Assembly: GCF_015687155.1 (NCBI RefSeq)
Contig: NZ_JADPQF010000003.1
Span: 310,001 to 374,000 of the forward strand
Reading direction: 5' to 3'
DNA length: 64,000 nt
DNA from: Aliikangiella sp. G2MR2-5
GTDB taxonomy: Bacteria; Pseudomonadota; Gammaproteobacteria; Enterobacterales; Kangiellaceae
The notes under the pieces were generated by a model, which was not told the DNA's origin, did no database searches, and saw nothing but the letters and a program-made list of their open reading frames with translations. Shown here piece after piece: positions 26,520 to 44,260 of this stretch (position 1 is its first letter; each line of letters starts with the position of its first letter). Position numbers and translations under genes: made by a program.

Positions 26520-28865
26520 ATGGGGCTTGATAAACGGCTTTATATCTGGACTGGACTATTTTCTTTACTAGTTCTCGCCCTGATTTTTATTATTCAGGAT
26601 GGGCCAAGGATCGAAAGTAATATTTTAAAATTGCTTCCGTCGAAGCAATACAATCCTATTGTTGATAAAGCCTTTACCCAGTTCTCGGAAGAAAAAGGTA
26701 AGCAACTTTTCTTTCTCGTCGAGACTGAAACTTCGCAAGCTGACGACAATGTATCGTTTGCCGTGCAAGAGTTAATTGAGATCCTAAAAAAAAATCAGTA
26801 CGTTGAATCGGCATATTCCGGAATTTCGGAAAAGGAAAGGCGTTCTATTGCAAAGTTTATATTTGATAATCGTTTTTATTTGATGACCGAAGGTGATGCA
26901 TCAAAGATTAAAAACGGAGACTATCATTCTTTTTCTGATTTAGTTCAGCAGCAGCTTTACTCTCCTTTTAGCGGAGAAGTTATCCGTTTATTACCGAAAG
27001 ACCCCTTACTATTCAGCTATCGCTATGCAAAAGAGTTAAAGCTGAGCGAACGAAATTTTCAGCAAGACAACGAGCTCATTTTTTTGGCGGATAAGGAACA
27101 TCGTTATTACGTTGTCAGAGCAAAGCTTAAGGAAAGCCCGTTTTCTCGTTCTGTTCAAAAAGCTTTGCTTAAAGAGATTAGTACTTTTGAAAAACAATGG
27201 GACAGTTCAAGGATTAAGCTCTATCGTACTGGTGCAATGTTTTTCGCTGCCCACGGGTTTGAAAGTGGTGAAAGAGAAGTCTCAACAATTGGCGTTGGCT
27301 CGATAGCGGGAATCTTTTTATTGATTCTTTGGGCTTTCAGAAGTTTAACCCCTTTGATATCGATATTATTGACCATCAGTGTAGGGGTAGCCAGTGGCTT
27401 TGCCGTCGTACATACTATTTTTAATGAAATTCACTTGATTACGCTTATTTTTGGGGCAAGTTTAATCGGGGTATCGGTCGACTATGCATTTCACTACCTA
27501 TGCTCATCGAGCGTAAATCGAAAAGAAAGAATAGAGCGAATATTCGTTGCGATAACACTAGGACTGGCTTCCAGTGTGATCGGCTATCTTGCACTAGGGA
27601 CCGCTCCTTTTCCGGGATTAAAGCAGATGGCGGTATTTTGTACTTCCGGCTTAATTGCTTCCTATGTGACCGTCGTATTATTAATTCCCTGTTTACCAAT
27701 GAATGCCAGGTTAACGCCGACGGTGTTAACTCAAGTAAATGCCCTGGCTAGTGTTTTTCGAGCCGAAAAAGCCAAACTTCTTTTTTTCGGCTGTCTTATA
27801 TTTCCTATTTATGCAGGCTTCTCACTTTGGAAAGCTATGCCTGAAGTGGAGGATATTCGACAGTTTCAAAATAAAAATCAAGAGCTGGCAGGTGAGCAGA
27901 ATAAAATAAAGGATGTAGTTGCCTTAGGTGAAGTGAATCAGTTTTTTATCGTCAAAGGCAGGAGTCAGGAGCTATTGCTGGAAAGTCTTGAAATTCTTCA
28001 GCAACAGCTTGAGCTATGGAAAAGTGAAGGCATCATCGGCGGTTACCTTTCATTAGGACAATACCTTCCCAGTCGAAAAAGAAAACAACGAAATATCGAG
28101 CTGTATTCGCAATTGATGGATAGTGATGCATTAAATGTCGTAGTCGATATGGAGCTAATGACAAGAATTGAGAGCAAGGCATTAACAGAATCATTTATCC
28201 AGCAAATCCCAGGCAGGGTTGATATTGAAAGTTCCTTACAGGATTTGGGTGCTTCTGCAATCAGTGAGCAGTGGCTTGGAAAAATTGATGATGAATTTGT
28301 CACCATTGTTAGTTTGTCTTCAATAAGCAATCTGTCCGAGATGAAAGATTTAAACGCGGATATTCTATTTGTTGATAAGGTCGATAGCGTTTCTCGAATA
28401 TTTAGTGAATACAAAAAGCAGTCATTGCTTTTACTCCTGCTTGCTATCGGCGTGATATTATTTACCTTAAGTATTCGCAGAGGATTACGAAATGCACTTA
28501 TCGTCATCGCCTCGCCAGTTTGTGCTATTTCGATAGCTATAACCACTTTGCTTGTATTCGGTTATTCGGTGAGCCTATTTAATGTATTGGCGTTATTTCT
28601 AGTTTTGGGGGTCGGTGTCGATTACGGTGTTTTTCTTATGGAAAGTGGTGATGAGGATAAAGAAACATCAACAGCCGTATTATTGGCTGCTTTGACAACC
28701 TTATTATCATTTGGCTTGTTGTCCTTAAGCGAAACACCCGCGATTCAAGGATTTGGGGTGACTATGCTGTTTGGTATTTGTAGTGCTTATATTTTGGCGT
28801 CGATTAGTTTTCGCTTTTTACAAAGCGAAAAAGGATCTTCTGTAAAAGGTGATATTTCAAAATGA
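26520..28865 (+). CDS. MMPL/RND-family exporter of the aryl polyene cluster
   Basis: The 781-residue membrane protein has an N-terminal helix, a large periplasmic domain, then two blocks of membrane helices. The relay-type Asp residues appear in LIGVSVDYAFHYL and VLGVGVDYGVFLMES, showing the duplicated RND/MMPL design. It likely exports the polyene-lipid to the periplasm or outer membrane using the proton gradient. It overlaps the DUF3261 gene by four bases. Length is usual for single-chain MMPL exporters. Confidence 0.88.
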   Translation: MGLDKRLYIWTGLFSLLVLALIFIIQDGPRIESNILKLLPSKQYNPIVDKAFTQFSEEKGKQLFFLVETETSQADDNVSFAVQELIEILKKNQYVESAYSGISEKERRSIAKFIFDNRFYLMTEGDASKIKNGDYHSFSDLVQQQLYSPFSGEVIRLLPKDPLLFSYRYAKELKLSERNFQQDNELIFLADKEHRYYVVRAKLKESPFSRSVQKALLKEISTFEKQWDSSRIKLYRTGAMFFAAHGFESGEREVSTIGVGSIAGIFLLILWAFRSLTPLISILLTISVGVASGFAVVHTIFNEIHLITLIFGASLIGVSVDYAFHYLCSSSVNRKERIERIFVAITLGLASSVIGYLALGTAPFPGLKQMAVFCTSGLIASYVTVVLLIPCLPMNARLTPTVLTQVNALASVFRAEKAKLLFFGCLIFPIYAGFSLWKAMPEVEDIRQFQNKNQELAGEQNKIKDVVALGEVNQFFIVKGRSQELLLESLEILQQQLELWKSEGIIGGYLSLGQYLPSRKRKQRNIELYSQLMDSDALNVVVDMELMTRIESKALTESFIQQIPGRVDIESSLQDLGASAISEQWLGKIDDEFVTIVSLSSISNLSEMKDLNADILFVDKVDSVSRIFSEYKKQSLLLLLLAIGVILFTLSIRRGLRNALIVIASPVCAISIAITTLLVFGYSVSLFNVLALFLVLGVGVDYGVFLMESGDEDKETSTAVLLAALTTLLSFGLLSLSETPAIQGFGVTMLFGICSAYILASISFRFLQSEKGSSVKGDISK

Positions 28866-29536
28866 GTAAACTATTTACTTACTTTATACCGAGAATGACG
28901 CTTATTTGCTGTAGTTTACTGTTTCTCTCGTGTGCGTCTCAGCTAAGTACGCAACGTCGCGTTGAGATCGCCAAAGGTATCAATTTTCCGCTATTAGCAC
29001 CTCATTCCTTCGGTGACTCTGTTGCTTTAACCCAATTGGCTAAGGTTAATTATGAGAAGGATAGCGGTGAGCAATTGTTATTTAGAATAGAGATTAGCCC
29101 AGAAAAAATGACGGTTGCCGGATTGACATTAAGCGGGACTCGTCTTTTCGCTATTGAATATGATGGCTCAAAAATAATAAGTGAGGGCTTGGCTGCAATA
29201 TTGGATAAAATAAAACCACAATATTTGTTGGCCGATATCCAGATATCTTTGTGGCCATCGAAGGTTTTACTTAAACATTTTGATGAGCAAATTTGTGTTA
29301 GCAAGGAAAATTGTTTATTTAGTGTCGATAGCAAAAGTGGTGCGCGTGAACTTTATCAGAATAACAAACACTTGTTTACAGTGAATTATTTGGCTGATAC
29401 GCGAGATGCCCAGAAAATAGAGCCTATGGAAAAAATGGAGGTCTCGAAAAAACTTGAAGTCATACATTATCAGCGAAAATATCGACTGATGATTAAGAAC
29501 CTGGAGAAAGAATCCATCGAGAGTAGCAATGAATAA
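28862..29536 (+). CDS. DUF3261-type lipoprotein of the aryl polyene cluster
   Basis: The 224-residue product has a signal peptide with lipobox LSC and lipidated Cys at residue 24. The rest includes KVNYEKDSGEQLLFRIEI, MTVAGLTLSGTRLFAIEYDG and PQYLLADIQISLWP, typical of the DUF3261 proteins that accompany MMPL genes in APE clusters (apeN position). A role in outer-membrane insertion of the pigment is plausible but unproven. It overlaps the MMPL gene by four bases and the ketosynthase gene by eight. Confidence 0.78.
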   Translation: MSKLFTYFIPRMTLICCSLLFLSCASQLSTQRRVEIAKGINFPLLAPHSFGDSVALTQLAKVNYEKDSGEQLLFRIEISPEKMTVAGLTLSGTRLFAIEYDGSKIISEGLAAILDKIKPQYLLADIQISLWPSKVLLKHFDEQICVSKENCLFSVDSKSGARELYQNNKHLFTVNYLADTRDAQKIEPMEKMEVSKKLEVIHYQRKYRLMIKNLEKESIESSNE

Positions 29537-30722
29537 ACGCCCGAAAGTATATTTGAGTCGTCCCGGTATTGTCTGTGCGTTGGGCTGTGATGAGTCTGAA
29601 GTCTATCAGAATCTGATTGACGGTCAGTCAAAAGGGATGAGGGTGATTAAATCCCCATTACGGCATTCTCATTTTTTTGTCGGTCAGGTTTGCTCTGAAC
29701 TGCCGTCCATTGATTCCTCTTTATCTGAGCTTGATTGTCGTAACAATCAACTGGCTGCAGCTGCGCTTGCGCAAATTCAGACTGAAATTGACGAGCATAA
29801 AAAATGTTATTCTGCGCATAGGCTAGGAGTAGTCGTTGGTACGAGTACATCTGGGATAGCGGAAGCTGAACAGGCGCTCAATGCTTACAATCAGTCACAG
29901 AAATTTCCAGAAAGTTATCATTATAAAAAGCAGGAGTTGGGTTCTCTAGCTGAATTTGTCGCTGAGTTTACCGGAGCTACTGGACCATCATATGTGGTTT
30001 CTACTGCTTGCTCTTCGAGTGGAAAAGTATTCGCTTCTGCTAGAACACTAATTGAAAGAGGGCTTTGTGACGCAGTTATTGTTGGTGGTGCTGATTCAAT
30101 ATGTGAGTTGACTTTAAGTGGTTTTGAGTCTCTGGAGGCTACGAGCAGCGAGCGAACTATTCCGTTTAGTCGAAATCGAAACGGCATCAATATTGGTGAA
30201 GGCGCGGCATTTTTTGTCATGAGCCGGGCTCAAAGCCCTGTTGAACTTTTAGGTGTTGGTGAATCTTCAGATGCCTATCATATGTCTGCTCCTGAGCCTG
30301 ACGGTAAAGGTGCGTGCTTGGCTATGCGTAGGGCGCTGGAGGATTCAGGGCTGGAAGCTGAGGAAGTTGACTATCTAAATTTACATGGAACCGGAACCAG
30401 GTTGAATGATCAAATGGAAAGTCGTGCTGTACACCTGCTGTTTGGAGAAAGTTTGCAGGTAAGTTCAACCAAGCCGCTTACCGGCCATGCATTAGGGGCT
30501 GCCGGTGCGATTGAAGCTGCAATTTGCTGGACTCTCCTAGCCCATCGAGAGGACAAAAAGGTTGCGCCACACATCTTCGATGGCTGCTATGATCCTGAAC
30601 TGAGTCCTGTTGCCCTTTGCGAATCAAGCGAAAGCAAGAAGATGCTATCTAAAGTGATGAGTAATTCCTTTGCTTTTGGTGGAAATAATGTCAGTGTTAT
30701 CTTAGGAAGTTGTCATGAGTAA
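29529..30722 (+). CDS. apeO: Aryl polyene beta-ketoacyl synthase (ApeO type)
   Basis: The 397-residue ketosynthase has the full Cys-His-His triad: Cys161 in VVSTACSSSGKVF, His in LNLHGTGTRLND and His in KPLTGHALGAAGA. It should condense malonyl-ACP units on the growing aryl polyene, together with the Cys-less ApeC partner. ATG at 29529 overlaps the DUF3261 gene by eight bases. It is followed by the apeP-like dehydratase with an eight-base overlap. Confidence 0.9.
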   Translation: MNKRPKVYLSRPGIVCALGCDESEVYQNLIDGQSKGMRVIKSPLRHSHFFVGQVCSELPSIDSSLSELDCRNNQLAAAALAQIQTEIDEHKKCYSAHRLGVVVGTSTSGIAEAEQALNAYNQSQKFPESYHYKKQELGSLAEFVAEFTGATGPSYVVSTACSSSGKVFASARTLIERGLCDAVIVGGADSICELTLSGFESLEATSSERTIPFSRNRNGINIGEGAAFFVMSRAQSPVELLGVGESSDAYHMSAPEPDGKGACLAMRRALEDSGLEAEEVDYLNLHGTGTRLNDQMESRAVHLLFGESLQVSSTKPLTGHALGAAGAIEAAICWTLLAHREDKKVAPHIFDGCYDPELSPVALCESSESKKMLSKVMSNSFAFGGNNVSVILGSCHE

Positions 30723-31203
30723 AAGTGCGACTAAAGCAGATCTAGAGAGAGTGGTACAAGAACACCCGATTGAGAACTTGATTCCTCACTCTCAACCGAT
30801 GGTTTTAATTGATCGAATTGTTAATATCGAGACAGATAGTTTAGTTGCGGAAATTGATATTCACCAGCACGTGCGCTTTTGGGATGAGGCGAGTGGTGGA
30901 GTTCCGACCTGGGTAGCAATCGAGTATATGGCTCAAGCGATAGCGGCGCTTGCAGGATGTAAAGCGCTGGCACTTGGTGAGAGCGTTAAACTTGGCTTTC
31001 TATTGGGCAGCAGAAAGTTTGGCATTAATCGTCCTGTGCTGGAGTCGGAAAAAACCTTCAAAATTCTGGTAGAACAACTTTATATGGATGACTCTGGTCT
31101 GGCGTCTTTTCAGTGTAAAGTTGCTGATGGAATAAACGAATACGCCAATGCCAAACTCAATGTATTTGAAACTGATGATGTTAGTCAGGTATTGGCAGGA
31201 TAA
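30715..31203 (+). CDS. apeP: Aryl polyene 3-hydroxyacyl-ACP dehydratase (ApeP type)
   Basis: A 162-residue hot-dog dehydratase with NLIPHSQPMVLIDRIV (predicted catalytic His25), and WVAIEYMAQAIAALAGCKAL, the standard second half. In characterised systems it works with the ApeI-type dehydratase. Start overlaps the ketosynthase gene. A 177-base gap follows, the largest inside the cluster; it holds a perfect palindrome TCCCATGGGA (31211-31220) and an isolated TTGACA (31277-31282). Confidence 0.85.
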   Translation: MSKSATKADLERVVQEHPIENLIPHSQPMVLIDRIVNIETDSLVAEIDIHQHVRFWDEASGGVPTWVAIEYMAQAIAALAGCKALALGESVKLGFLLGSRKFGINRPVLESEKTFKILVEQLYMDDSGLASFQCKVADGINEYANAKLNVFETDDVSQVLAG

Positions 31204-31380
31204 TGTAGTGTCCCATGGGATAAGGCTAAACAGATTTTAATATTTTTTGTAGTATATCATTTGCAACTTTATCTTCTTGACAGAAATGGTTTGTACCCAG
31301 GCTTAGATAAGACGTTCAGAGTGAAGTTAAGAATAATCAATCGTGTTAACGAAATGAGAAAAAATAAGAGAGTAAGATAA

Positions 31381-32106
31381 ATGGGGAGATGGGTTCTTGT
31401 GACCGGTTCGAGCCGGGGGATTGGAAAGGCTGTAGCGCTTGCGTTGGCGAAAGATGGATTTAATATTGTTGTTCATTGTCGAAGCGGACTCGACCTGGCA
31501 CAGAATGTGATGCAGGAAATTCTGTCGCTCGGCCAGGAAGCCCGAGTGGTTCAGTTCGATATCAGTGACAGAAAGGCTGCTGCTCAAGTTATTCAGAGTG
31601 ATATTGAAACCTTCGGCGCATACTATGGTGTCGTTTGTAATGCAGGGGTAACTCGAGATAATGCGTTTCCATCGATCAGTGGTGAAGACTGGGATACCGT
31701 TTTACATACCAATCTGGATGGTTTCTACAATGTTGTTCATCCGCTTGTTATGCCGATGATTCAGGCGAGAAAAGGCGGGCGAATAGTTGCTATGTCTTCA
31801 GTCTCAGGAGTGGCAGGCAACCGTGGCCAGGTGAATTACAGTGCTTCCAAGGCGGGATTAATCGGCGCGACTAAAGCACTAGCGGTTGAACTAGCGAAGC
31901 GAAAAATTACTGTGAATTGCGTTGCGCCTGGAATGATTGATACTGAAATGGTTGATGAAATGGTGTTAAAAGAAGCGATGAAAATGATCCCTGCCAAGCG
32001 GGTAGGAAAAGTAGAAGAAGTCGCCAGCCTTGTTGCTTATCTATTTTCTGATAATGCGGGATACATTACTCGTCAGGTAATTTCTGTCAATGGAGGTATG
32101 GCATGA
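31381..32106 (+). CDS. apeQ: Aryl polyene 3-oxoacyl-ACP reductase (ApeQ, FabG-type)
   Basis: The 241-residue short-chain dehydrogenase has the NADPH loop TGSSRGIGKAVA (residues 8-19), the CNAG motif, Ser140, and the catalytic Tyr153-x-x-x-Lys157 in NYSASKAG. It reduces the 3-keto group each cycle. A start-proximal GAGAGTAAG acts as ribosome-binding site. Its stop overlaps the final ketosynthase start (ATGA), so the two genes are translationally coupled. Confidence 0.9.
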   Translation: MGRWVLVTGSSRGIGKAVALALAKDGFNIVVHCRSGLDLAQNVMQEILSLGQEARVVQFDISDRKAAAQVIQSDIETFGAYYGVVCNAGVTRDNAFPSISGEDWDTVLHTNLDGFYNVVHPLVMPMIQARKGGRIVAMSSVSGVAGNRGQVNYSASKAGLIGATKALAVELAKRKITVNCVAPGMIDTEMVDEMVLKEAMKMIPAKRVGKVEEVASLVAYLFSDNAGYITRQVISVNGGMA

Positions 32107-33332
32107 CCGCTCGTGTTGTAGTGACTGGAATGAGTGGGATTACTGCATTTGGAAGTGACTGGCAGACGATTAAATCTTTGCTTCAGAAGGGAAACAATGC
32201 TGTCAGGTATATGAATGAATGGGATATCAGTGATGATTTGCGAACCCGTTTGGCAGCTCCGGTAGAAAATTATGAGTTTCCCAAATTCCCGCGTAAAAAA
32301 ATACGGAGTATGGGACGAGTCTCATTACTTGCAACTTGTTCTACACAACAAGCTTTGTTGCAATCTGGCTTGCTTGAGTCCAAGTTTTTAACCGATGGTA
32401 CCACCGGTATCGCTTACGGTTCTTCTTCCGGAAGTACCGCGCCAATAAAAGTGTTTAGTAATATGATGCAAACAGGCAGTATGACCGGATTCACCTCTAC
32501 TTCATATGTAGAAATGATGAGTCATACTGCACCTGTCAATATGGGGGTTTTCTTTGGCTGTCGTGGTCGGATTATTCCTACGAGTAGTGCTTGCACGTCA
32601 GGTAGCCAGGGAATTGGCTATGCCTACGAAGCGATTAAATATGGGCGACAAAAAATAATGATCGCAGGCGGAGCCGAAGAATTGTGTATTACACAAGCTG
32701 GCGTATTTGATTCTTTATTCGCCACATCCACAAAAAATGATACACCAGAGCTGACACCGCGCCCCTTCGATATTGGTCGAGATGGGTTGGTTATAGGAGA
32801 GGGGGCTGGAACATTAATTCTTGAAGATTACGAATTTGCCAAACAACGTGGAGCTAAAATATTGGCAGAAGTTGTGGGGTTTGGTTGTAATTCCGATGGT
32901 GCTCATGTCACACAGCCACAAAAAGAAACCATGTCGATTGCTATGAGACAGGCTTTAGATGACGCCAACTTATCGGGGGATGAAATAGGCTACGTTAGTG
33001 CTCATGGTACTGCGACAGATCGAGGAGATGTAGCTGAAACATGCGCAACTTATGACGTGTTCAATCGAGCAGTACCTATCAGTTCATTAAAGAGCTACTT
33101 TGGTCATACTTTGGGGGCATGCGGGGCAATTGAAGCCTGGCTCAGCATTGAGATGATGCATGACGGCTGGTTTTCACCGACAGCCAACCTTCACTCTGTT
33201 GATCCAGAGTGTGGTTCGCTTGACTATATTACTGGGAATGGTCGAGAGATAAATTGCGATTTTGTTATGAGTAACAATTTTGCATTTGGTGGGATTAACA
33301 CTTCATTGATTTTTAAAAAAGTGACGGATTAA
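32103..33332 (+). CDS. apeR: Aryl polyene beta-ketoacyl synthase (ApeR type)
   Basis: The 409-residue ketosynthase has Cys164 in IIPTSSACTSGSQGIGYA, His in VSAHGTATDRGD and His in SYFGHTLGACGAIEAW, so the triad is complete. In the Xenorhabdus system this second ketosynthase is linked to starting the chain. It overlaps the reductase gene by four bases and closes the biosynthetic cluster. A 34-base spacer with AAGGAAA leads to a lipoprotein gene. Confidence 0.9.
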   Translation: MTARVVVTGMSGITAFGSDWQTIKSLLQKGNNAVRYMNEWDISDDLRTRLAAPVENYEFPKFPRKKIRSMGRVSLLATCSTQQALLQSGLLESKFLTDGTTGIAYGSSSGSTAPIKVFSNMMQTGSMTGFTSTSYVEMMSHTAPVNMGVFFGCRGRIIPTSSACTSGSQGIGYAYEAIKYGRQKIMIAGGAEELCITQAGVFDSLFATSTKNDTPELTPRPFDIGRDGLVIGEGAGTLILEDYEFAKQRGAKILAEVVGFGCNSDGAHVTQPQKETMSIAMRQALDDANLSGDEIGYVSAHGTATDRGDVAETCATYDVFNRAVPISSLKSYFGHTLGACGAIEAWLSIEMMHDGWFSPTANLHSVDPECGSLDYITGNGREINCDFVMSNNFAFGGINTSLIFKKVTD

Positions 33333-34545: not shown

Positions 34546-35205
34546 ATGGCCGATTGGAACAGTGATAAAAAAGTACTAACGATAAAACTGGTTTACTACG
34601 GTCCAGCTCTAAGCGGAAAAACGACTAATGTAGTGTCGTTACACGACCTCCTTCAGCCAGAGCTAAAAGGGGACATGCAGATACTGGAAACGAAAAACGA
34701 TAGAACACTATTTTTTGATTTGCTTCCTCTTGGGATCAGAAGCCCTGATGGGACATTAATCAAACTTAAAATCTACACAGTGCCAGGTCAAGTCGTACAC
34801 AATAGTACTCGAAAAGCCGTCTTATCTCGATGTGACGGGATTATTTTTGTAGCAGACTCACAGATAACACAATCGGAAAATAACGCAGAGTCTTTCAATA
34901 ATCTTATCCAAAATGCAAAGCTCGTTGGTATTGATATAGATAGAATTCCTCTGATAATACAATTCAACAAGCGAGACCTAAATGAAATTACTACCAAAGA
35001 GGAACTCGAAAAACGTTGGGAAAACTGTCCTTGGCCGTTAACTTATGCAAGTGCCCTCAATCAGGAAGGAGTCGTCGAGTCTTTGATACTACTACTTCAT
35101 AAGGTATACGAATTTATCGACTCTGACTCGCAGGGTTTTAGTCGACATGGTTTGGGCAAAGAGCAATTTGTCGAGCATATTATATCTGGAAACATTAAAT
35201 GCTAG
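34546..35205 (+). CDS. MglA-like Ras-type GTPase
   Basis: The 219-residue small GTPase has the MglA-type P-loop GPALSGKTTN, the NDRTLFFDLLPL segment, YTVPGQVVHNSTRKAVLSR (MglA-type G3 with TVPG in place of DTPG) and QFNKRDL (G4, Asn-Lys-x-Asp). MglA proteins set cell polarity and direct type IV pili in Myxococcus. No MglB/roadblock gene adjoins it. It overlaps the kinase gene by seven bases, so the GTPase and kinase are likely made together. Confidence 0.85.
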   Translation: MADWNSDKKVLTIKLVYYGPALSGKTTNVVSLHDLLQPELKGDMQILETKNDRTLFFDLLPLGIRSPDGTLIKLKIYTVPGQVVHNSTRKAVLSRCDGIIFVADSQITQSENNAESFNNLIQNAKLVGIDIDRIPLIIQFNKRDLNEITTKEELEKRWENCPWPLTYASALNQEGVVESLILLLHKVYEFIDSDSQGFSRHGLGKEQFVEHIISGNIKC

Positions 35206-36428
35206 CCAACGATTTTGAGCAGGATTATACGCTTGATAGTTTGTTCGGTGCGAACAGTCGAAACAAGGTCTGTTCAGCGCTAAGAGGCTTGGGGTTTGAA
35301 AGCTTTTCTGTCGTTAACCTGAACAAAGAGGAAATCCTGAGGCAGGGCGATTTAACTGAGCTTGATTCTGTTCAAATTGAGCTGGTTGTAGAGTTGGAGC
35401 CTGTTGGCCATCTTGTCGTTGATAGATCTAAAGAGATACTGGCAAAAGGTGCTGCTGAATTCATAGTAGAAATATTACAAATTAACTGGCGTTACCAAAT
35501 GGCATCTAGTCTTCATTTACAGGTTTCACAAAGTGATTTCGAAGAGTTAAAACAGAAAAATCGAGAGCTAGCTGAGTCAGAACTTCGTTACAAAGAGTTA
35601 TCTGAAAATCTTGAAATGAGAGTTAATGATCAGGTCAAACTTATTGAAGAATCACAAAGACAACTTTATGAAGCAGAAAAGTTTGCATCTGTTGGACATC
35701 TTGCTGCCGGAATGGCTCATGAGATCAATACTCCAGTAGGATTTATTCAGAGTAATTTGAGCGCTGCTTTTGATTATCTCGATGAAATCAAAGAAAAAGT
35801 GCTTTCTAAAAATTACGATAATGTTAAACAAAAGGATGCCGAAGATTTGGAATTTGTTTTACAAGATTTTTTTGATTTGCTAAATGAGTCGAAAAATGGA
35901 GCAAAACGGATAGCATCAATCGTTTCTGATTTAAAAGCGTTTTCAAATGTAGAGCAAGCCGAAGAGCAGAAGTTAGATCTGAATGAGACCATACAGTTGG
36001 TCTCCAGAATATTTAAAACTTCGATAGGAGGTTCCATTGAGTTGGTGACCGACCTGCATCCAGTTGAAAAGATAATTGGAAAACCTGCTCATATTAACCA
36101 GTTATTGCTCAACTTATTACAAAATGCATCACAAGCATTTTCTGTGACTGAAAGGAGTGCTGCTGAACCTAGAATTAAAATCTCAAGCAAAATGAAAGAA
36201 AAACAGCTGGAAGTTTCCATCAGTGATAATGGTTGTGGTATGAGTGAAGAGGTCATTAGGCAGATATTTACACCATTCTACACTACTCGAGATGTTGGTG
36301 GTGGTACTGGTTTGGGACTGACTGTCTGTAAGGATATTGTCACTGCTCACAATGGAAGTATTGAAGTCAAAAGTAAACCAGGGATGGGAACACTGGTTAC
36401 TTTACGCTTTCCGTGCAATTGCCTATAA
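35199..36428 (+). CDS. Soluble histidine kinase next to the MglA-like GTPase
   Basis: The 409-residue protein has no membrane helix. Residues 1-105 look like a degenerate GAF-type sensor (VGHLVVDRSKEILAKGAAEF). A coiled coil (about 110-165) leads to the H-box GMAHEINTPVGF with His174, then NLLQNASQAF (N-box), DNGCGMSEE and GGGTGLGLTVCKDI (G-boxes). It probably phosphorylates the receiver of the downstream PilB-fusion protein. The start overlaps the GTPase gene. GTPase control of the kinase or the reverse is inference. Confidence 0.85.
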   Translation: MLANDFEQDYTLDSLFGANSRNKVCSALRGLGFESFSVVNLNKEEILRQGDLTELDSVQIELVVELEPVGHLVVDRSKEILAKGAAEFIVEILQINWRYQMASSLHLQVSQSDFEELKQKNRELAESELRYKELSENLEMRVNDQVKLIEESQRQLYEAEKFASVGHLAAGMAHEINTPVGFIQSNLSAAFDYLDEIKEKVLSKNYDNVKQKDAEDLEFVLQDFFDLLNESKNGAKRIASIVSDLKAFSNVEQAEEQKLDLNETIQLVSRIFKTSIGGSIELVTDLHPVEKIIGKPAHINQLLLNLLQNASQAFSVTERSAAEPRIKISSKMKEKQLEVSISDNGCGMSEEVIRQIFTPFYTTRDVGGGTGLGLTVCKDIVTAHNGSIEVKSKPGMGTLVTLRFPCNCL

Positions 36429-36460
36429 ATAGCTTTGTCTTAGTATCAGGTGTTCACAAA

Positions 36461-38701
36461 ATGGAAAATTACGACTCCCTCTTTACCGGCAAAAAAAAGG
36501 AAAAGAAAGAAGACAATAAAGCAAATTTTTTACCGGAACAGTATTGTGTTTTGCTGGTTGATGATGAGCCGGCGATGTTGAAATCTTTGCAGCGGTGCTT
36601 TCGACGTGAAAATTATGCTATCACTCTATCTGAAGAACCTATAGAAGCGTTAAAACTAATACAAAACCAAAGGTTTCATTTGGTGATTTCTGATTTTAAA
36701 ATGCCGAAAATGAATGGTGCCGATTTTTTAAGAGAAGTTAAAAGGATAAGTCCAGAAACGGTAAGGATAATGTTGACTGGGCATGCAGATACCTCTGCTG
36801 TGATGGCTGCAATCAAAGATGGTGCTGTCTACAAGTTTATTCTAAAACCCTGTAATAATGATGATCTTAGGGTGACAGTTGCTCTTGCTTTGGAACAGTA
36901 TGAGCTGCAGAAAAAAAATGCGAAGCTTGAAGCTGATAATAAGAAACATCAAAAGGATTTGTCGCGATTAACTCGATTGATGACGAATAATCGAACCCAA
37001 TTATTATTTGTATTGAACAAAAAAAATCTTATTTCCGATGTTCAAGTTCAGCAGCTGGTCAAACTTTCAATTGCTACTCGTCAAATCCCTATAAAGCTCC
37101 TGTTAGATAAGGGGTGGGTAAAAGAGAGTAAAGTTCGCCAAGTTATCAAGCAACAGTTCTTTATTGATGAAGTGCTTCTCAACGAATTCAAAATAGATCC
37201 TGCGGTAGTCAGCTTGATTCCCGCATCATTTTGTCGAAAACAGTTGATATTACCTATTAAACAACAGAAAAAAGTAGTCACGCTTGTAATGGCTGATCCT
37301 CTAGATGATGGTGTTATTGAAAGTCTAAAGTTCAGTAGTGGACTGGATTTCAATATAGTGATGGCCAATTGTGATGATATTGAAAAAAAAATCAAGGAAG
37401 TCTTTAGCGAAGGAAGCCAGCTAGAAAATTATGATTCTTTGATTTCTCAGGACGAAGCTTCGGATACGATAGAAATTATTATTGAGGAAGAAGAAGATAT
37501 TGAGCTTGTTGAATTATTAGAAGGGACTTCTGAACCTCCCGCGATCAAGTTAGCCAATGCGCTGATTATGGAAGCTATCCGATTAAATGCGAGTGATATT
37601 CATATTCAGCCCACATCAAAATATGTGATTGTTCGTCTAAGAATTGATGGGGTTTTGTTTGATAAGATTCATGTACCTCTTAGTTTACATATGCCATTGG
37701 TTTCCCGTATAAAAATCATGGCGGAGCTTGATATAACCGAAAGACGTAGGCCACAGGATGGAAGGATTACAGTTAAGTCTCCACTAAAAATTGTTGATCT
37801 GCGACTATCTACACTTCCTACGATCAATGGTGAAAAAATTGTAATGCGCCTACTGGATAGAAACTCCAGTATGTTACCTCTGCCTGATCTCGGGTTTACA
37901 AAAGAACAGCTTGATAAACTGGAATTGATTAGTACAAAGCCTCAGGGAATTATATTAACAACCGGACCAACGGGTAGCGGGAAAACTACTACCCTGTATT
38001 CATTGCTTCAAAGTAACGCAAATTCTGAGAAGAACTATATCACCATTGAGGATCCTGTAGAGTACTATATGGATAGAGCTGTTCAGGTAATGGTTAAGGA
38101 AAAGATTAATCTGAATTTCACTTCGGTACTACGAGCTGTTTTAAGGCAAGATCCCGACACCATTTTACTGGGCGAAATAAGAGATGCAGAAACCGCTGAT
38201 ATTGCGTTTCAGGCCGCGTTGACAGGACATGTTGTTTATTCAACGCTCCATACAAATTCCGCAATAGCGACAATAGCCAGACTGTTTGATTTTAATATGC
38301 GTCCATATGTCATTGCTTCGGCAATTGAAGCCATTGTCGCGCAAAGATTAGTAAGAAAACTCTGCCAAAAGTGCAAAATTCGAGTGAGCCCAGAGAAAAA
38401 ACAAATCAAACTTTTAGGCAAATCTTTTTTTGATGGTTTGGATAAAATTTTCGACGCAACTGGATGTGAGCACTGTCAGGGAAGCGGTCTGAAAGGAAGA
38501 ATAGGGATTTATGAGTTGCTTATTTTTAGTGAGGATATACGTCAGGCAATTTCCAAGCAGAAGAATATTATTGAGATCGCGAGTCTGGCTCATGAAAATG
38601 GTTTACTTTCTCTTTTGGAAGATGCAAAACTTAAAGTCGCAGAGGGGCTTATTTCTGTCGATGAAGTAATACGTGTGTTAGGCGCACAAGATCTTGATTA
38701 G
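36461..38701 (+). CDS. Receiver domain fused to PilB/GspE-type secretion ATPase
   Basis: The 746-residue protein (ATG start giving MENYDSLFTG; an earlier GTG at 36413 overlaps the kinase gene) has an N-terminal receiver with Asp78 (VISDFKMPKMNG), Thr106 and Lys129. A MshEN/T2SSE-like region (about 165-315) follows, then an acidic linker (IIIEEEEDIELVELLEG) and a PilB-type ATPase. The ATPase has Walker A GPTGSGKTTTL (from residue 502), Walker B ILLGEIRDAETAD, and a zinc tetracysteine (Cys635, 638, 669, 672). The fusion suggests direct phospho-control of a type IV pilus or secretion motor by the neighbouring kinase. No pilus structural genes are nearby. Confidence 0.88.
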   Translation: MENYDSLFTGKKKEKKEDNKANFLPEQYCVLLVDDEPAMLKSLQRCFRRENYAITLSEEPIEALKLIQNQRFHLVISDFKMPKMNGADFLREVKRISPETVRIMLTGHADTSAVMAAIKDGAVYKFILKPCNNDDLRVTVALALEQYELQKKNAKLEADNKKHQKDLSRLTRLMTNNRTQLLFVLNKKNLISDVQVQQLVKLSIATRQIPIKLLLDKGWVKESKVRQVIKQQFFIDEVLLNEFKIDPAVVSLIPASFCRKQLILPIKQQKKVVTLVMADPLDDGVIESLKFSSGLDFNIVMANCDDIEKKIKEVFSEGSQLENYDSLISQDEASDTIEIIIEEEEDIELVELLEGTSEPPAIKLANALIMEAIRLNASDIHIQPTSKYVIVRLRIDGVLFDKIHVPLSLHMPLVSRIKIMAELDITERRRPQDGRITVKSPLKIVDLRLSTLPTINGEKIVMRLLDRNSSMLPLPDLGFTKEQLDKLELISTKPQGIILTTGPTGSGKTTTLYSLLQSNANSEKNYITIEDPVEYYMDRAVQVMVKEKINLNFTSVLRAVLRQDPDTILLGEIRDAETADIAFQAALTGHVVYSTLHTNSAIATIARLFDFNMRPYVIASAIEAIVAQRLVRKLCQKCKIRVSPEKKQIKLLGKSFFDGLDKIFDATGCEHCQGSGLKGRIGIYELLIFSEDIRQAISKQKNIIEIASLAHENGLLSLLEDAKLKVAEGLISVDEVIRVLGAQDLD

Positions 38702-38757: not shown

Positions 38758-40071
38758 CTACTCCTCACTCTTTTTTACATAGACCCTTAACGGTGAATTG
38801 TAAATTTTTTCAAACATAAGGATTTTATCGATCATCATCTCGTTAAGGAGCGTGTCTTTTTTCAATAATAGTAATCCATTCTTATTAGTACAATCTCTGC
38901 TAAGTACCATACCTTCCTCAAGGCTATGACCTGAGAGCATATGTTCTTCTGAAACTTCTTCTTCTTCCTGTTGCTTTTTCGAAAGCTCTATAAATCGCTC
39001 TACTAAGCTCTTGTCATAAAGTTTTCCTTTGTTTTGTTCAATAAAATAGCGGGCATCTTCAGTGGTGTAATCAATACCGTCATATTTTCCTGCCCTTAGC
39101 AGGAAGTAATCCTTGATTATCGCCATAATTCGGCTACCAATAGAGATATCAGTACCCTTTTGTCCTTCAGGTTCTCCTGAACCATTGTAGTATTCACAGT
39201 GATGCTCAATAATTCGTGCAGTGTCATTAAAGCTGCTTATGTCGGACAATACTGTTGCCCCGATTTGCGGATAGTTCATATATTGTTTGTATTCATCGAC
39301 GCTCATCATTTTGACTGGAGTAGTGAGAAGTTTTTCCGGCAGAGCCAATTTGCCAAGCTCAAATAGAAGTGCTGAATAGTATATCTGCTTAACCATATAG
39401 TCACTAAGCTCCGCAGCTTCGGCCAGTTGCTCTGCTAGCTTTGGCAATTCCGGATACTTACGGCTAAAAATGTTCTCGCGAGCACAAATTGCATGATATA
39501 AAAGGTGAATAACGGCATCATAGCTTTCAGATAGCTCTTTGTAAGCATTATCAAGCAGGCACTCGGTCTCTCTTAACTCACGAACTCTGGCTTCTACCTT
39601 CTCTTCAAGCTTCTTGTTCCAGTCCCTTAACTGCTTATTTTGCTGATGTGTCAGAACAAGTAATCGTTCCTTTTCCTTTTCCAGATGGCTAATTTTAAGT
39701 AACGAGCTGACTTTCAGTTTGATATCGTTATCTTCCCAGGGCTTGCTGACGTAGGCACTAATCCTGCCGTCATTGATCGCTCTGATTGTTGATTGCTGGT
39801 CGGAGAAACCGGTAAGTAAGATGCTCGGAATTTTGGGGTGCTTTTCTTTCGCATGGCTTAAAAACTCTGCGCCATCCATATTGGGCATGCGCATATCGGA
39901 AATGATAAGGTCAATTTTTGTCTCTTCAAGTATGTTGAGACCTTCTTGTCCGCTTTCGGCAAGATGTATGTTGTAGCCATCCTTTCGGAAAAGTCGTTTT
40001 AATGAAACAAGAATATTGCGCTCATCATCAACGCATAGAATATTGGGTTGTTCTTGTAGTTTTTCGTTCAT
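38758..40071 (-). CDS. Response regulator with degenerate HD-GYP domain
   Basis: The 437-residue protein has a receiver (Asp59 in LIISDMRMPNMDG, Lys110), a coiled coil (about 130-185) and an HD-GYP-like domain. The catalytic HD dyad is replaced by Phe237-Glu238 in ALLFELGKLALPEKLL, and GYP is Gly-Glu-Pro (299-301), although His290-His291 and NGSG remain. It is therefore probably not a working c-di-GMP phosphodiesterase; binding or signalling roles are likelier. It converges with the PilB-fusion gene and follows a small cysteine protein on the same strand after 108 bases. Confidence 0.85.
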   Translation of the reverse strand: MNEKLQEQPNILCVDDERNILVSLKRLFRKDGYNIHLAESGQEGLNILEETKIDLIISDMRMPNMDGAEFLSHAKEKHPKIPSILLTGFSDQQSTIRAINDGRISAYVSKPWEDNDIKLKVSSLLKISHLEKEKERLLVLTHQQNKQLRDWNKKLEEKVEARVRELRETECLLDNAYKELSESYDAVIHLLYHAICARENIFSRKYPELPKLAEQLAEAAELSDYMVKQIYYSALLFELGKLALPEKLLTTPVKMMSVDEYKQYMNYPQIGATVLSDISSFNDTARIIEHHCEYYNGSGEPEGQKGTDISIGSRIMAIIKDYFLLRAGKYDGIDYTTEDARYFIEQNKGKLYDKSLVERFIELSKKQQEEEEVSEEHMLSGHSLEEGMVLSRDCTNKNGLLLLKKDTLLNEMMIDKILMFEKIYNSPLRVYVKKSEE

Positions 40072-40179
40072 TTACTGAGTCTCACTACCAAGTCTAAAGT
40101 TTTGACGCACCAGTTGTACCCAGGGCACTTTTACACTGTTCACGCTAAAGTCTAGGTTATTATTCTGAGAAATTCTAAT

Positions 40180-40617
40180 TTAGCTTTCAGAGCGCTTTTT
40201 TATCCGTTTTTTAAAAACTCCAAATTGTTCAAGTATCTTGCTTGTTCCGTGCTTCATATAGTATTTAAGCTCTTTTCTGGCCACCTCCTCCTCGAGGCCT
40301 TTACTGACTAAGTCGTGCATTACCCTGTCAAAAGCGTTACGCCTTTTTAATCCTTGTTCAGATGTATCGCGACGATTTTCGAAAAAATCGAGAAGGGTCG
40401 AGCCGCACACACAGTTACGGAATAGTTCCAGAACGACCTCTCCATCATCATCTTCTGATGATTTTAGTCCACTTTTTCCATGAACATCGACAGTCCTGGA
40501 AATAAACTCATCGACTGTATTGTAGATTTCACCGCAAGTGACGCATTTCTTGGGGAAAGAGTTCTTTTCAAGGGTAACCAGATCAAAAAACAGTTCAGAA
40601 TTGTCACTCGCTATCAT
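40180..40617 (-). CDS. Uncharacterised cysteine-rich protein coupled to a histidine kinase
   Basis: A small soluble protein of about 145 residues with CVTCGEIYNTVDEFISRT and FRNCVCGSTLLDFFENRRD. Two Cys pairs (CxxC and CxC) suggest a zinc or redox site. The C-terminal part is basic (KKRIKKRSES). I do not recognise the family. It is translationally coupled to the upstream kinase: GGGAG precedes GTG/ATG right at the kinase stop. A sensor or adaptor role in that signalling pair is inference. The GTG three bases earlier is an alternative start. Confidence 0.7.
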   Translation of the reverse strand: MIASDNSELFFDLVTLEKNSFPKKCVTCGEIYNTVDEFISRTVDVHGKSGLKSSEDDDGEVVLELFRNCVCGSTLLDFFENRRDTSEQGLKRRNAFDRVMHDLVSKGLEEEVARKELKYYMKHGTSKILEQFGVFKKRIKKRSES

Positions 40618-40619
40618 CA

Positions 40620-42083
40620 CTAATCTCCCGAGTTTAAGTCTGCTTCCTCTTCAGCTTCTTCGAGAGAGCTCACTATTGGCAGATGGATGGTAAAGCAGGT
40701 ACCGACTCCCACTTCACTTTCGACCACTATTTTTCCCTTATGATTTTCGATGATGCCGTAGGATATAGAGAGACCAAGCCCGGTACCCTGGCCGACAGGT
40801 TTGGTTGTAAAAAACGGATTGAATAGCTGGTTCAAGTGCTTTTCATCAATACCAGTACCATTATCCTGAATTTTTATACAGATAAAGTCGTCAACTTTAT
40901 AAGTCTTAATGGATATCTCACCTTTTTCTTTGATTGCGTGCCCTGCATTGATAAGAAGATTCATAAAAACCTGGTTTAACTGACTAGGGTGACAGTAAGT
41001 TTCTGGCAGCTCACCCAGTTCTTTTTTAACTTTGCAGTGGTACTTCAATTCATTCCAGACAATACGCACCGTCTCTTCAATACAGGCATTTATGTCACTT
41101 TTCTTCATTTGCTCTTCACCAGCATGAGTGAAGTTCTTCAAGCTCTGTATTATCTTCTTTACTTTTTCCATTCCAAAAATGCTCTCAGAAACCAGTTCCT
41201 GGGTGTCAGAGAGAATAAATTCAACTTCGTATTCATTCTTGAGGTTACTGATGACTTCCGGTATTTGTGAGCAACTTTCCTGTTTATTGCAGATATCTCC
41301 GACCTGATTTAATAGCTCATCGATAAACTGGCCCAATTCCATGACATAGTCTTTCAATGTATTCAGGTTACTGTTGACATATCCCAGAGGATTATTAATT
41401 TCATGGGCAACTCCGGCAGCTAGCTGCCCAATTGACGCCATCTTTTCAGAATGTACAAGTTGGCTTTGGGCTGATTTAAGTTCTTCGTATTGTTGTTTAA
41501 TCTTTGCCTTTGAGTGATAGGCTGAGAGAAAGTTTCCAACATGCATAGTGACATAGGCCAGCATCGACATATCACTGTAGGAAAATCTGCCTTCTCTATC
41601 ATATTGTTGGGCAACTATCCCTCCATGGAGATTAACTGCATGAAAAGGAAGGAATACCCATTGACAGGGAACATTCCCCAAACATTTGACCTTTTCATTC
41701 TGAACTAATTCAAGGACATCTTCTTTCGCCAGGATGAGTGAGCGCTTTTGTTTAAGCGCATATGCTACAAGGCTATGCTTCAAGTCTGGATTGGTGGATT
41801 CATTCAGCTGCTCTTTTGTAAATTCTGAGGACTCATCGATAATAAAAGGAATATCCAGAAGACCATCAACTTTCAAGCAAATGTAAAAATTTTCAATATG
41901 AATTATTTCAGTAAGCAAAGTGAATATTCGTTTATAGATATTTTCAAGCTTGTCTTCTCTTCCCTGAAATTGTGATATTTCCGAAATAACATTTTTAACT
42001 GCCAACTCTCTTTGCAGTGTTAGATTTTCCTGACGCAGATCGCTTAACTGTGCTTTTAAGCTATTTATTGTATTCGCTTCCAT
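40620..42083 (-). CDS. Soluble GAF-domain histidine kinase
   Basis: The 487-residue kinase has no membrane helices. An N-terminal coiled coil leads to a GAF-like domain (about residues 30-190; with CLGNVPCQWVFLPF), then a linker helix, the H-box GVAHEINNPLGY with His227, and an ATPase domain with LLINAGHAIK, DNGTGIDEKHL and GTGLGLSI. It is the upstream gene of a short minus-strand group with the cysteine protein and the HD-GYP response regulator. Phosphotransfer to that receiver is likely but untested. Confidence 0.88.
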   Translation of the reverse strand: MEANTINSLKAQLSDLRQENLTLQRELAVKNVISEISQFQGREDKLENIYKRIFTLLTEIIHIENFYICLKVDGLLDIPFIIDESSEFTKEQLNESTNPDLKHSLVAYALKQKRSLILAKEDVLELVQNEKVKCLGNVPCQWVFLPFHAVNLHGGIVAQQYDREGRFSYSDMSMLAYVTMHVGNFLSAYHSKAKIKQQYEELKSAQSQLVHSEKMASIGQLAAGVAHEINNPLGYVNSNLNTLKDYVMELGQFIDELLNQVGDICNKQESCSQIPEVISNLKNEYEVEFILSDTQELVSESIFGMEKVKKIIQSLKNFTHAGEEQMKKSDINACIEETVRIVWNELKYHCKVKKELGELPETYCHPSQLNQVFMNLLINAGHAIKEKGEISIKTYKVDDFICIKIQDNGTGIDEKHLNQLFNPFFTTKPVGQGTGLGLSISYGIIENHKGKIVVESEVGVGTCFTIHLPIVSSLEEAEEEADLNSGD

Positions 42084-42472
42084 TGAATTTCTCTAACCAT
42101 AGAAAGGAGCATGTAGGTTGATTAATTTAGTATGGTTTATAAACTCGAAAACGCAAATTTCCATCTGTCAAATCAAGCTCAGATTTATTGCGACTTTGTT
42201 GTCTTGAACTCAAAGGCACACTGAAAAATGCGTAAATATCTCAAAAAGAAATGTGTCTGTGCAGGATTAGCGTCTAATCTAAAAATAGTGCAGAAGATAA
42301 AGAGTTTTAGTCAATTGATTCGTTTGGCTGGGAAATCTTAATATGAGATAAGTTATGTTCTGCAAATTTCCAAAATATCGAGTTGATTTACGGCTCGCGT
42401 GTTTCTACCTTTTTGCATGGAAAGATAGGAAAGACATTCAAACCGTTTTCAAATATACCGAAAAGTAGATCT
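42084..42472. other. Divergent intergenic region between kinase and GGDEF-EAL genes
   Basis: About 390 bases with no supported gene. It should hold promoters for both directions. A plus-strand candidate promoter is recorded at 42315-42344. The in-frame extension of the GGDEF-EAL gene from 42383 (TTG) is not convincing, so I leave that stretch as leader. Confidence 0.4.
42315..42344 (+). promoter_or_regulatory. Candidate promoter of the GGDEF-EAL gene
   Basis: TTGATT (42315-42320) and TAATAT (42339-42344) are separated by 18 bases. It lies about 130 bases before the chosen ATG. Read by eye only, so spurious matches in AT-rich DNA are possible. Confidence 0.35.
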
Positions 42473-44260
42473 ATGATTAATTATACTTCGAGCGAGCAGT
42501 TCACAATACTTATCGTAGAAGATAATCTTACGATGATGACGGTGATTCAAGAGCTACTAAAAGCGGCTAATATAGCCAAATCAATAACTTGCACCTCCAC
42601 TGGTAAAGAAGCGCTGACTCAATATCAGAATAATCAATTTGACTGCATATTATTGGACTATGAGCTTCCAGATATGGACGCAAATGAAATTTTGGTTGAG
42701 TTTCAAAAAGATAAGCCGCTTGAGTGTCCTGTTTTGATTCTTACAGCGCATGAAGATCCTAAATTAGCGTCTAAAAGTCTCTCTTTAGGAGCTGTAGATT
42801 TCATTACCAAATCAGAATGCTCTGCTCAGGTTTTAAAAAGAGCGATACTTTTCGCTATTACCAGAAGACGTTATGACTTGAGCAAAATACGAAGTGTTGA
42901 GTCAACTGCACAGACAAGCGATGATTATAAAGAGCTAAAAGACATTATTGTCAATCACAATACTGGTATTGTGGAATACAACTACTTCCTCAATGAACTC
43001 GAGCGTGCACTTGCTCGAGCTCGGCGTTATCAACTTCGAGTTTCTGTTGTTGCAATTTGCGTAGAGGATTATGAGCAAATTATTTCCAAAGGCGGAGCGA
43101 GTAAAAAGAAATCATTCCTGGAGTCCTTTGCAGAAAGGTTGCAAGTGTCAATTCGAGCAATAGATTTGATTGGCTGGATTCGCGAAGATAAATTCTGTGT
43201 TTTAGTTGAGCATGTTGCAGATAAAAAGACTGCATTACTAGTTGCCAGACGAATCAAGAATACACTAGAGCTACCACTACAAACTCAATTTGAAAAAATT
43301 GATATCAGAGTAAAAATCGGCCTTTGTCATGAAAAGCATTTAACCATTTCCGGAAAGCGAATTTTAATTAATGCACAGGCAGCAATGGAAAGTATCGATG
43401 AGCAGTCAGAAGAAAAAATTAAGTTTTATTCTGAAGAGATACAGACCCATGACAGGGCTCAATTGCTAGTGAAGCGTGAGTTTAAAAAAGCATTAAAAAA
43501 TCAGCAGCTTTTTCTCGAGTACCAGCCAATAGTAACTATTGGAGCAGAAAAAACCGTTGCAGCAGAGGCTCTTGCTCGTTGGAAACATCCTGATTTTGGT
43601 GTTATTCCACCAATGGATTTTGTACCCTTTCTGGAAGAGTCTGGATTCATCAACAAGTTCGATAATTGGGTACTGGAAACTGTATTTATGCAGCTTGATA
43701 TGTGGCGAAAAAGGATGAGTGAACCTCCGGTGGTTTCTATTAATGTTCTCGTGCATACGTTGCAGGATGAAAGTTTTTTCAATCAAATCAAGAAAGGATT
43801 GGATGAAAGAGAGCTTTCAGGAAAGTATTTGCAGCTAGAAATTTCCGAAGAGTTAGTCAGTCTGACATCTACAGATTTTTATGCGACTTTAAGAAAACTT
43901 CAGGCTTTAGGAGTTTCAATTGCCCTGGATAACTTTGGACTTAATATGCCATCCTTGTCGGTTATTGAGGATTTTCCCTTTGATGTTCTCAAAATAGACA
44001 AGAAACTCGTTCAGCTGGTTTCAGAAGATCGAAATGTCTGTGCGATTGTAGAGGCGCTAATCGATATTGCTCTCAATTTGGAGAAGCGGGTTGTTGTTGA
44101 GGGCGTTGAGACTCACAATCAGTTAGATTTCTTCACTAACTTAAAAGTTGATTTAGCTCAAGGGTTCTTTTTTTCTCGGGCGATAGATGCTGATACTTTT
44201 ACTCAACGTTTACTTGATGAAAGTGTCGATACTGACAAAGTCGTTAAGTTTAAATACTGA
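42473..44260 (+). CDS. Receiver-GGDEF-EAL protein with non-canonical motifs
   Basis: The 595-residue product (ATG giving MINYTSSEQF) has a receiver with Asp62 (ILLDYELPDM), a GGDEF-like domain in which the signature is IREDKF, and an EAL domain. The EAL domain keeps EALARW, SINVLV, LEISEEL, LKIDKK, VEGVET and AQGF, but loop 6 reads LDNFGLNMPS in place of DDFGTGYSS. The cyclase half should be inactive. The EAL half may bind c-di-GMP, with hydrolysis in doubt. It stands beside a second-messenger-type response regulator and the PilB fusion, suggesting a c-di-GMP effector in the same circuit. Confidence 0.87.
   Translation: MINYTSSEQFTILIVEDNLTMMTVIQELLKAANIAKSITCTSTGKEALTQYQNNQFDCILLDYELPDMDANEILVEFQKDKPLECPVLILTAHEDPKLASKSLSLGAVDFITKSECSAQVLKRAILFAITRRRYDLSKIRSVESTAQTSDDYKELKDIIVNHNTGIVEYNYFLNELERALARARRYQLRVSVVAICVEDYEQIISKGGASKKKSFLESFAERLQVSIRAIDLIGWIREDKFCVLVEHVADKKTALLVARRIKNTLELPLQTQFEKIDIRVKIGLCHEKHLTISGKRILINAQAAMESIDEQSEEKIKFYSEEIQTHDRAQLLVKREFKKALKNQQLFLEYQPIVTIGAEKTVAAEALARWKHPDFGVIPPMDFVPFLEESGFINKFDNWVLETVFMQLDMWRKRMSEPPVVSINVLVHTLQDESFFNQIKKGLDERELSGKYLQLEISEELVSLTSTDFYATLRKLQALGVSIALDNFGLNMPSLSVIEDFPFDVLKIDKKLVQLVSEDRNVCAIVEALIDIALNLEKRVVVEGVETHNQLDFFTNLKVDLAQGFFFSRAIDADTFTQRLLDESVDTDKVVKFKY

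Follow-up and report, generated by a model that had tools for sequence, protein, structure and literature searches.

What might a small GTPase, a histidine kinase and a motor ATPase carrying its own receiver domain do together when they are encoded side by side? The question is raised by a locus of Aliikangiella sp. G2MR2-5 (Kangiellaceae; NCBI RefSeq assembly GCF_015687155.1), which lies within the 64,000-nucleotide stretch of DNA analysed here (contig NZ_JADPQF010000003.1, positions 310,001 to 374,000; hereafter the window). Three neighbouring genes on its + strand encode an MglA-type small GTPase, a soluble histidine kinase and a receiver-fused ATPase of the type IV filament family. The linkage of these three genes is beyond chance. 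Our proposal, held tentatively and with a confidence just short of even, is that they would give type IVa pili (T4aP) an accessory motor that is switched by phosphorylation and steered by an orphan MglA GTPase.

If true, two bacterial signalling pathways would act together and directly on the pilus motor; the small-GTPase and two-component routes to this motor known so far mostly run through adaptor proteins, in a small number of models. An operon with the three parts recurs in both beta- and gamma-proteobacteria, and some genomes have no further receiver gene in its surroundings; such an operon permits a direct test of the coupling between GTPase, kinase and motor. The module further suggests that extension-type ATPases include a distinct class alongside PilB, GspE, MshE and TfpB, and it may explain how orphan MglA GTPases function in the absence of MglB.

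Layout of the three-gene module

The + strand genes encode, in order, the GTPase (34546-35205, 219 aa), the kinase HK1 (35199-36428, 409 aa) and the ATPase, whose gene ends at 38701. The initial annotation had described all three genes as overlapping. The first two indeed share 7 nt, but a 16-nt overlap between kinase and ATPase is present only if the latter starts at GTG 36413. The ATPase start is probably ATG 36461 instead (36461-38701), from which the protein begins MENYDSLFTG, resembling the family consensus M-x-YASLFTG, and is 746 aa long against a family median of 744 (762 aa from the GTG). Because both N-terminus and length fit the family, a 32-nt gap between kinase and ATPase is likelier than the overlap.

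Conservation of the linkage

A GTPase alignment scan of 84,980 species genomes returned 445 relatives, of which the 80 loci most similar to the window were retained. Domain searches were made on 82 loci: these 80 (two through equivalents), one duplicate and the window itself. GTPase, kinase and receiver-ATPase follow one another in order on one strand in 74 of the 82, and the genes are tightly packed across loci. The linkage in relatives, on which the initial annotation had staked its reading, is thus kept in 73 of 81 loci once the duplicate is left out. Shared order and strand do not mean that every gene is intact, as the kinase frames are short in L063 and L072; L067 carries an extra receiver gene between kinase and ATPase. 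Seven of the remaining loci end at a contig edge, and in one (L071) kinase and ATPase are turned round beside the GTPase. Carriers of the trio are mostly Gamma- and Betaproteobacteria, among them Methylomonas, Thiobacillus, Sulfuricella, Hahella, Vreelandella and Aromatoleum, with a few metagenome-assembled genomes labelled otherwise. Among the best 80 of the 445 relatives, the closest to the window are a Kangiellaceae metagenome-assembled genome and then Aliikangiella coralliicola.

Co-occurrence was followed in two further samples, of the class and of the phylum, which share some genomes and both contain the window's own. A GTPase match at E 1e-10 occurs in 13 of 370 genomes of the class: eight intact, two degenerate and three remote. 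The receiver-MshEN half of the ATPase occurs in eight, the same eight that hold the intact GTPase (8 of 13 if all matches are counted; Fisher p about 1e-16, with genomes treated as independent), and the trio is found at all seven class loci besides the window. Matches of 24-30% identity (G002, G018, G102, G134, G227, G355 and G521) and the degenerate copies in G230 and G490 were not counted as orthologues. The 397-genome phylum sample holds the GTPase in five genomes and the ATPase in four, with the trio in order in three of these besides the window. An ATPase without the GTPase was seen in neither sample, in which at most 5 ATPase candidates per genome were scored, so that misses are possible; an intact GTPase and kinase without the ATPase occurred once. 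The degenerate GTPases, at L134 (G230) and L135 (G490), lack an accompanying intact kinase and receiver-ATPase, as though the whole module were decaying at once. In G490 a T2SSE piece directly follows the GTPase remnant.

An MglA-type GTPase with no MglB found

The GTPase, which matches the Arf and Ras families of Pfam, carries a P-loop (GPALSGKT), Arg53, the motif TVPGQ with Gln82, and NKRD. It aligns without gaps to residues 6-181 of Myxococcus xanthus MglA (E 5e-40), Arg53 and Gln82 included. Group 1 of the MglA family is marked by TVPGQ at G3, [NT]KxD at G4 and an arginine beside the G2 threonine, according to the accessible part of Wuichet and Sogaard-Andersen (PMC4316618). The protein has the first two motifs, and Arg53 takes the place of the arginine in the alignment to MglA. 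Judged by these motifs it is a Group 1 MglA-type GTPase, as its initial assignment to the polarity-type GTPases had anticipated. Orthologue loci were collected by protein searches without a peptide pattern, and frames were selected by their P-loop and [TG]VPGQ; of the 16 loci, 14 have P-loop, arginine motif (DRTLFFD), TVPGQ and NKRD with constant spacing, and two (G230 and G490) lack P-loop and arginine motif and are the degenerate copies. The arginine motif is present in 81 of 81 loci of the wider set, a count biased by the use of this motif in the genome scan itself.

A coupled MglB, usual though not universal in Group 1, was not found. No roadblock gene adjoins the module, as had been noted at the outset, and a profile search of the genome with PF03259 gave 0 matches at E<=0.1; the model misses some MglB homologues (PMC4316618, accessible part). 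The same part of that survey counts 59 orphans among 449 MglA family members and describes Group 1 gene neighbourhoods as widely variable. A search of plasmids for the GTPase gave a single match, in Deinococcus ficus (44% over 145 residues), which was set aside: it adjoins a roadblock gene, with kinase and ATPase unannotated within 8 kb, and looks like an ordinary MglA/MglB pair.

The soluble kinase HK1

HK1 comprises Pfam HisKA and HATPase_c domains, with a phospho-acceptor histidine, His174 (35718-35720), and ATP-binding boxes whose residues are invariant or almost so across 41 orthologues. No membrane-helix-like stretch was found in the protein (highest 19-residue Kyte-Doolittle mean 0.93), bearing out the initial description of a kinase without a membrane helix. 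The structure model has a predicted local distance difference test score (pLDDT) of 88.5. The N-terminal domain (residues 1-112; 35199-35534) belongs to no Pfam family and was predicted alone, since the 50 matches listed for the whole kinase all fell on the kinase core. Its predicted fold is GAF/roadblock-like; the VIA list for the domain holds many GAF domains and phytochromes, and other folds would be compatible with it.

A receiver-fused ATPase in its own clade

The third protein comprises three Pfam domains (residues counted from the GTG): a receiver (REC; Response_reg, 46-156; 36548-36880), an MshEN-like domain (254-334; 37172-37414) and a T2SSE motor domain (373-754; 37529-38674). In the receiver, the acidic pair D50 and D51, the phospho-acceptor D94, T122 and K145 are invariant in 41 of 41 orthologues. 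The phospho-acceptor codon lies at 36692-36694, and Asp94 in this numbering is the Asp78 of the initial annotation. Characteristic residues of the T2SSE superfamily are equally invariant in all 41, namely the Walker A lysine, the Walker B motif GEIRD, both histidines of the His box and the four cysteines of the CxxC pairs. The MshEN domain differs in this respect: the RLG-type motif, which we take to be the c-di-GMP (cyclic di-GMP)-binding motif, is not kept, its Arg and Gly positions being replaced in most of the 41 orthologues. Control by c-di-GMP through the ATPase's own MshEN domain was rejected on this ground.

The initial annotation's PilB/GspE ATPase with its own receiver stands as regards domain composition, but the PilB/GspE label is only loosely right. 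The protein scores below the NCBIfam cut-offs of the models for PilB (TIGR02538, 532.1 against 675.65 bits), GspE (TIGR02533, 532.8 against 630.25) and TfpB (NF053534, 430.3 against 850). The 17 module ATPases group together as a clade in a tree of 57 T2SSE domains (SH-like approximate likelihood ratio test, SH-aLRT, 100; stem 1.32), separate from the clades of PilB and GspE; this tree was built quickly, has open forks and, near MshE, long branches, and omits L169, a repeat, and L172, which lacks a T2SSE domain. The module ATPase is its own clade by this tree and falls short of all three cut-offs.

Such a protein could also serve as a regulatory decoy or brake, the phosphorylated form binding PilB, PilM or PilC and inhibiting pilus extension. 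In the tree, 14 carriers show a further motor that falls in the PilB clade, and the module has no structural genes alongside, both of which would suit this role; the invariance of Walker A, Walker B, His box and both CxxC pairs would be needless for a pure decoy, and we consider the idea unlikely.

Proposed mechanism and its target

In the accessory-motor proposal, the orphan Group 1 GTPase, with its observed motifs, would cycle between GTP and GDP forms. Its GTP form would bind the N-terminal domain of HK1, whose predicted GAF/roadblock-like fold could substitute for the missing MglB. According to the predicted structure, this domain would relay the signal along one long helix to the phospho-acceptor histidine. 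HK1 would then phosphorylate the receiver fused to the dedicated extension-type ATPase, where the residues for phosphotransfer are intact. Phosphorylation may set whether the ATPase engages or powers the T4aP, beside PilB and as a conditional accessory motor, a role modelled on that of TfpB in Acinetobacter. A stronger form of the idea, less likely than not, is a G-protein-gated two-component pathway that leads, without MglB, from the MglA-type GTPase through a roadblock-like sensor domain of HK1 to the receiver-fused ATPase, the latter being a previously unnamed class, so that GTP state, phosphorylation and pilus force would be joined in one module.

Several observations weigh against the accessory-motor proposal, and those on the target machine come first. 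The window's genome holds the secretins PilQ, GspD and MshL, and its PilB, GspE and TfpB pass their NCBIfam cut-offs; the operons around its pilus and secretion genes, and the MSHA, pilC and pilD names, were read by eye. Pilus structural genes do not adjoin the module, in keeping with the initial remark, and none is found among the gene clusters common to at least 6 of the 80 loci. We chose 23 carriers (11 of the sampled genomes with G handles and 12 isolate genomes behind scan loci) and 22 control genomes, the latter including three members of the genus (G002, G004 and G005; G002 has a 28% GTPase-like match). All 23 carriers have PilQ over cut-off, 20 have GspD and 15 have MshL; among the 22 controls, 21 likewise have PilQ above its cut-off. 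PilQ presence is therefore non-discriminating, co-occurrence with T4aP was rejected as proof of the target, and the one thing that carries weight for T4aP is that some carriers lack GspD and MshL.

Two carriers, G399 and G575, have PilQ over cut-off and neither GspD nor MshL, although G575 has further, weaker secretin matches. G399 encodes three extension-type ATPases at E 1e-70: one of the PilB clade, the module's and one other. The secretin pattern suggests a narrowing of the target to T4aP without proving it, and the initially proposed action in trans is supported indirectly, PilQ being the only one of the three secretins over cut-off in every one of the 23 carriers. That the ATPase powers another machine, be it the type II secretion system (T2SS), MSHA or an undefined filament, seems to us quite unlikely. 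Its equal scores for the GspE and PilB models and the frequency of GspD and MshL among carriers would fit such a role, whereas G399 and G575 speak against it, as does the window's genome, which encodes GspE, PilB and an MSHA-type ATPase at other places. This genome also encodes a TfpB-type motor (L028, 7441-9207 on contig C1; NF053534, 858 bits against a cut-off of 850), which would bring its accessory motors to two, in addition to PilB.

The other contrary points concern HK1. The roadblock likeness of its N-terminal domain is level with that to GAF and weak in Foldseek, and the 10 families listed at E<=0.1 for 41 HK1 members do not include Robl_LC7. In a mirror-tree comparison of 36 loci all parts co-vary (r 0.69-0.90), but the partial correlation of HK1 with the ATPase receiver is 0.29 given the GTPase and 0.09 given the ATPase core, against 0.61 and 0.39 for HK1 with the REC of a neighbouring REC-HD-GYP protein. 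HK1 and the ATPase receiver as an exclusive pair are thus unsupported. Lastly, in the fifth GTPase-bearing genome of the phylum sample (G846, L189), GTPase and kinase are followed by a 1069-aa REC-GGDEF-EAL-REC frame in place of the ATPase, possibly by an output swap or a deletion.

Receivers and c-di-GMP proteins around the module

The initial annotation, which took the ATPase for the apparent phospho-target, made no mention of the REC-HD-GYP, lone REC, HDOD-like and GGDEF-EAL genes that often surround the trio. HD-GYP matches occur in the examined flanks of 62 of the 82 loci (one duplicate included); in 49 of these the match is on the same strand, no more than 2.5 kb upstream. Of the 79 loci where an upstream gene was called, 41 have a REC-only gene as the nearest one on that side. 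The 80-locus gene set, which omits L071 and the duplicate, contains an HDOD-like protein (named by eye) in 32 loci and a GGDEF-EAL-REC cluster in 22. With REC-HD-GYP, single REC and GGDEF-EAL-REC proteins so often nearby, and a mirror-tree that does not favour it, the ATPase receiver is no more than a candidate for the exclusive target of HK1; the trios at L078 and L100, without another receiver detected in the flanks examined, argue in its favour. The frequent company of REC-HD-GYP, HDOD-like and GGDEF-EAL proteins makes it probable that c-di-GMP turnover is regulated together with the unit.

These neighbours raise the question of whether GTPase and kinase form a hub with mainly c-di-GMP output, HK1 acting chiefly on REC-HD-GYP and GGDEF-EAL-REC proteins and the ATPase being one output among several. 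The frequency of HD-GYP and REC-only genes, the better co-variation of HK1 with the REC of REC-HD-GYP and the arrangement in G846 all favour this view. We nevertheless find it rather unlikely: the trio is nearly invariant, and REC-HD-GYP has a more obvious partner in a second histidine kinase, HK2, which lies on the same strand at most 3.5 kb upstream of it in 45 of 59 loci with REC-HD-GYP. Moreover, no other receiver or kinase was detected in the flanks of the trios at L078 (10 + 10 kb) and L100 (6.5 + 10 kb), so the trio can stand alone; the genes around these two are unrelated, by eye. Andreprevotia chitinilytica is one carrier of a lone trio.

In the window, the counterpart of the HD-GYP and HK2 surroundings is a set of - strand genes at 38758-42083. 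It comprises the REC-HD-GYP protein (38758-40071), which also matches an NCBIfam NosR family over cut-off, a small CxxC/CxCG protein of 146 aa (40180-40620) with no Pfam or NCBIfam match, whose cluster stands by 7 of the 80 module loci, and HK2 (40620-42083), whose relatives often lie beside REC-HD-GYP. HK2 scores 285 bits against the NCBIfam subfamily T2SS_HK (NF038348; cut-off 450), and no paper on this model name was found in the open-licence literature. A REC-GGDEF-EAL protein follows on the + strand (42383-44260); its membership of the unit is doubtful, and the GGDEF-EAL-REC proteins adjoining relatives' modules have a different domain order. Upstream of the module, genes at 26520-33332 encode an MMPL/RND-like exporter and two ketosynthase-like, a dehydratase-like and a FabG-like protein, a set that by eye presumably resembles an aryl-polyene or flexirubin type cluster.

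Comparison with known systems

FrzS of M. xanthus carries a receiver-like domain. In this organism MglA and SgmX recruit PilB, and FrzS and SopA take part in T4aP control (PMC11580455, accessible part). The likeness to the present module is that a Group 1 MglA GTPase directs an extension ATPase there too. M. xanthus MglA, however, acts through SgmX on an ordinary PilB, with MglB as GTPase-activating protein, whereas the Aliikangiella module has a soluble kinase in its operon and a receiver on the ATPase, in a genome where MglB was not found. SofG of M. xanthus and the MglA of Bdellovibrio are likewise MglA-family GTPases without a coupled MglB and tied to type IV pili; the accessible part of PMC4316618 describes for them no operon with a kinase and a receiver-ATPase, nor any such three-part module elsewhere.

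The Streptomyces conservon (CvnA kinase, CvnB roadblock protein, CvnC and the GTPase CvnD) also encodes a histidine kinase and an MglA-family GTPase together. It differs in its membrane-bound kinase, its separate roadblock protein, the absence of a response regulator and a Group 2 GTPase without the arginine finger (PMC4316618, accessible part). A roadblock protein alongside kinase and GTPase is not seen here, Robl_LC7 being unmatched in the window's genome. Among the matches listed in the open-licence literature, no paper describes the three-part module in its title or the start of its abstract. In the accessible part of a 2024 review of PilB and its cofactors (PMC11656802), 'receiver', 'GTPase' and 'MglA' are absent and 'REC domain' appears three times, always for FimX.

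Closer to the motor itself are two further systems. TfpB of Acinetobacter baylyi is a distinct second extension motor that acts on T4P; like the module ATPase it is phylogenetically distinct and without pilB synteny, but receiver, GTPase and kinase go unmentioned in the accessible part of its description (PMC8213720), and the window's genome has a TfpB of its own besides the module ATPase. In Xanthomonas oryzae, the lone receiver EmvR represses PilB and sets its ATPase activity through the phospho-acceptor Asp (PMC11973254, accessible part). Both there and in the module an extension ATPase would be controlled by a receiver domain in a manner dependent on that residue; EmvR is a separate protein that acts on PilB, whereas the receiver of the module is part of the motor.

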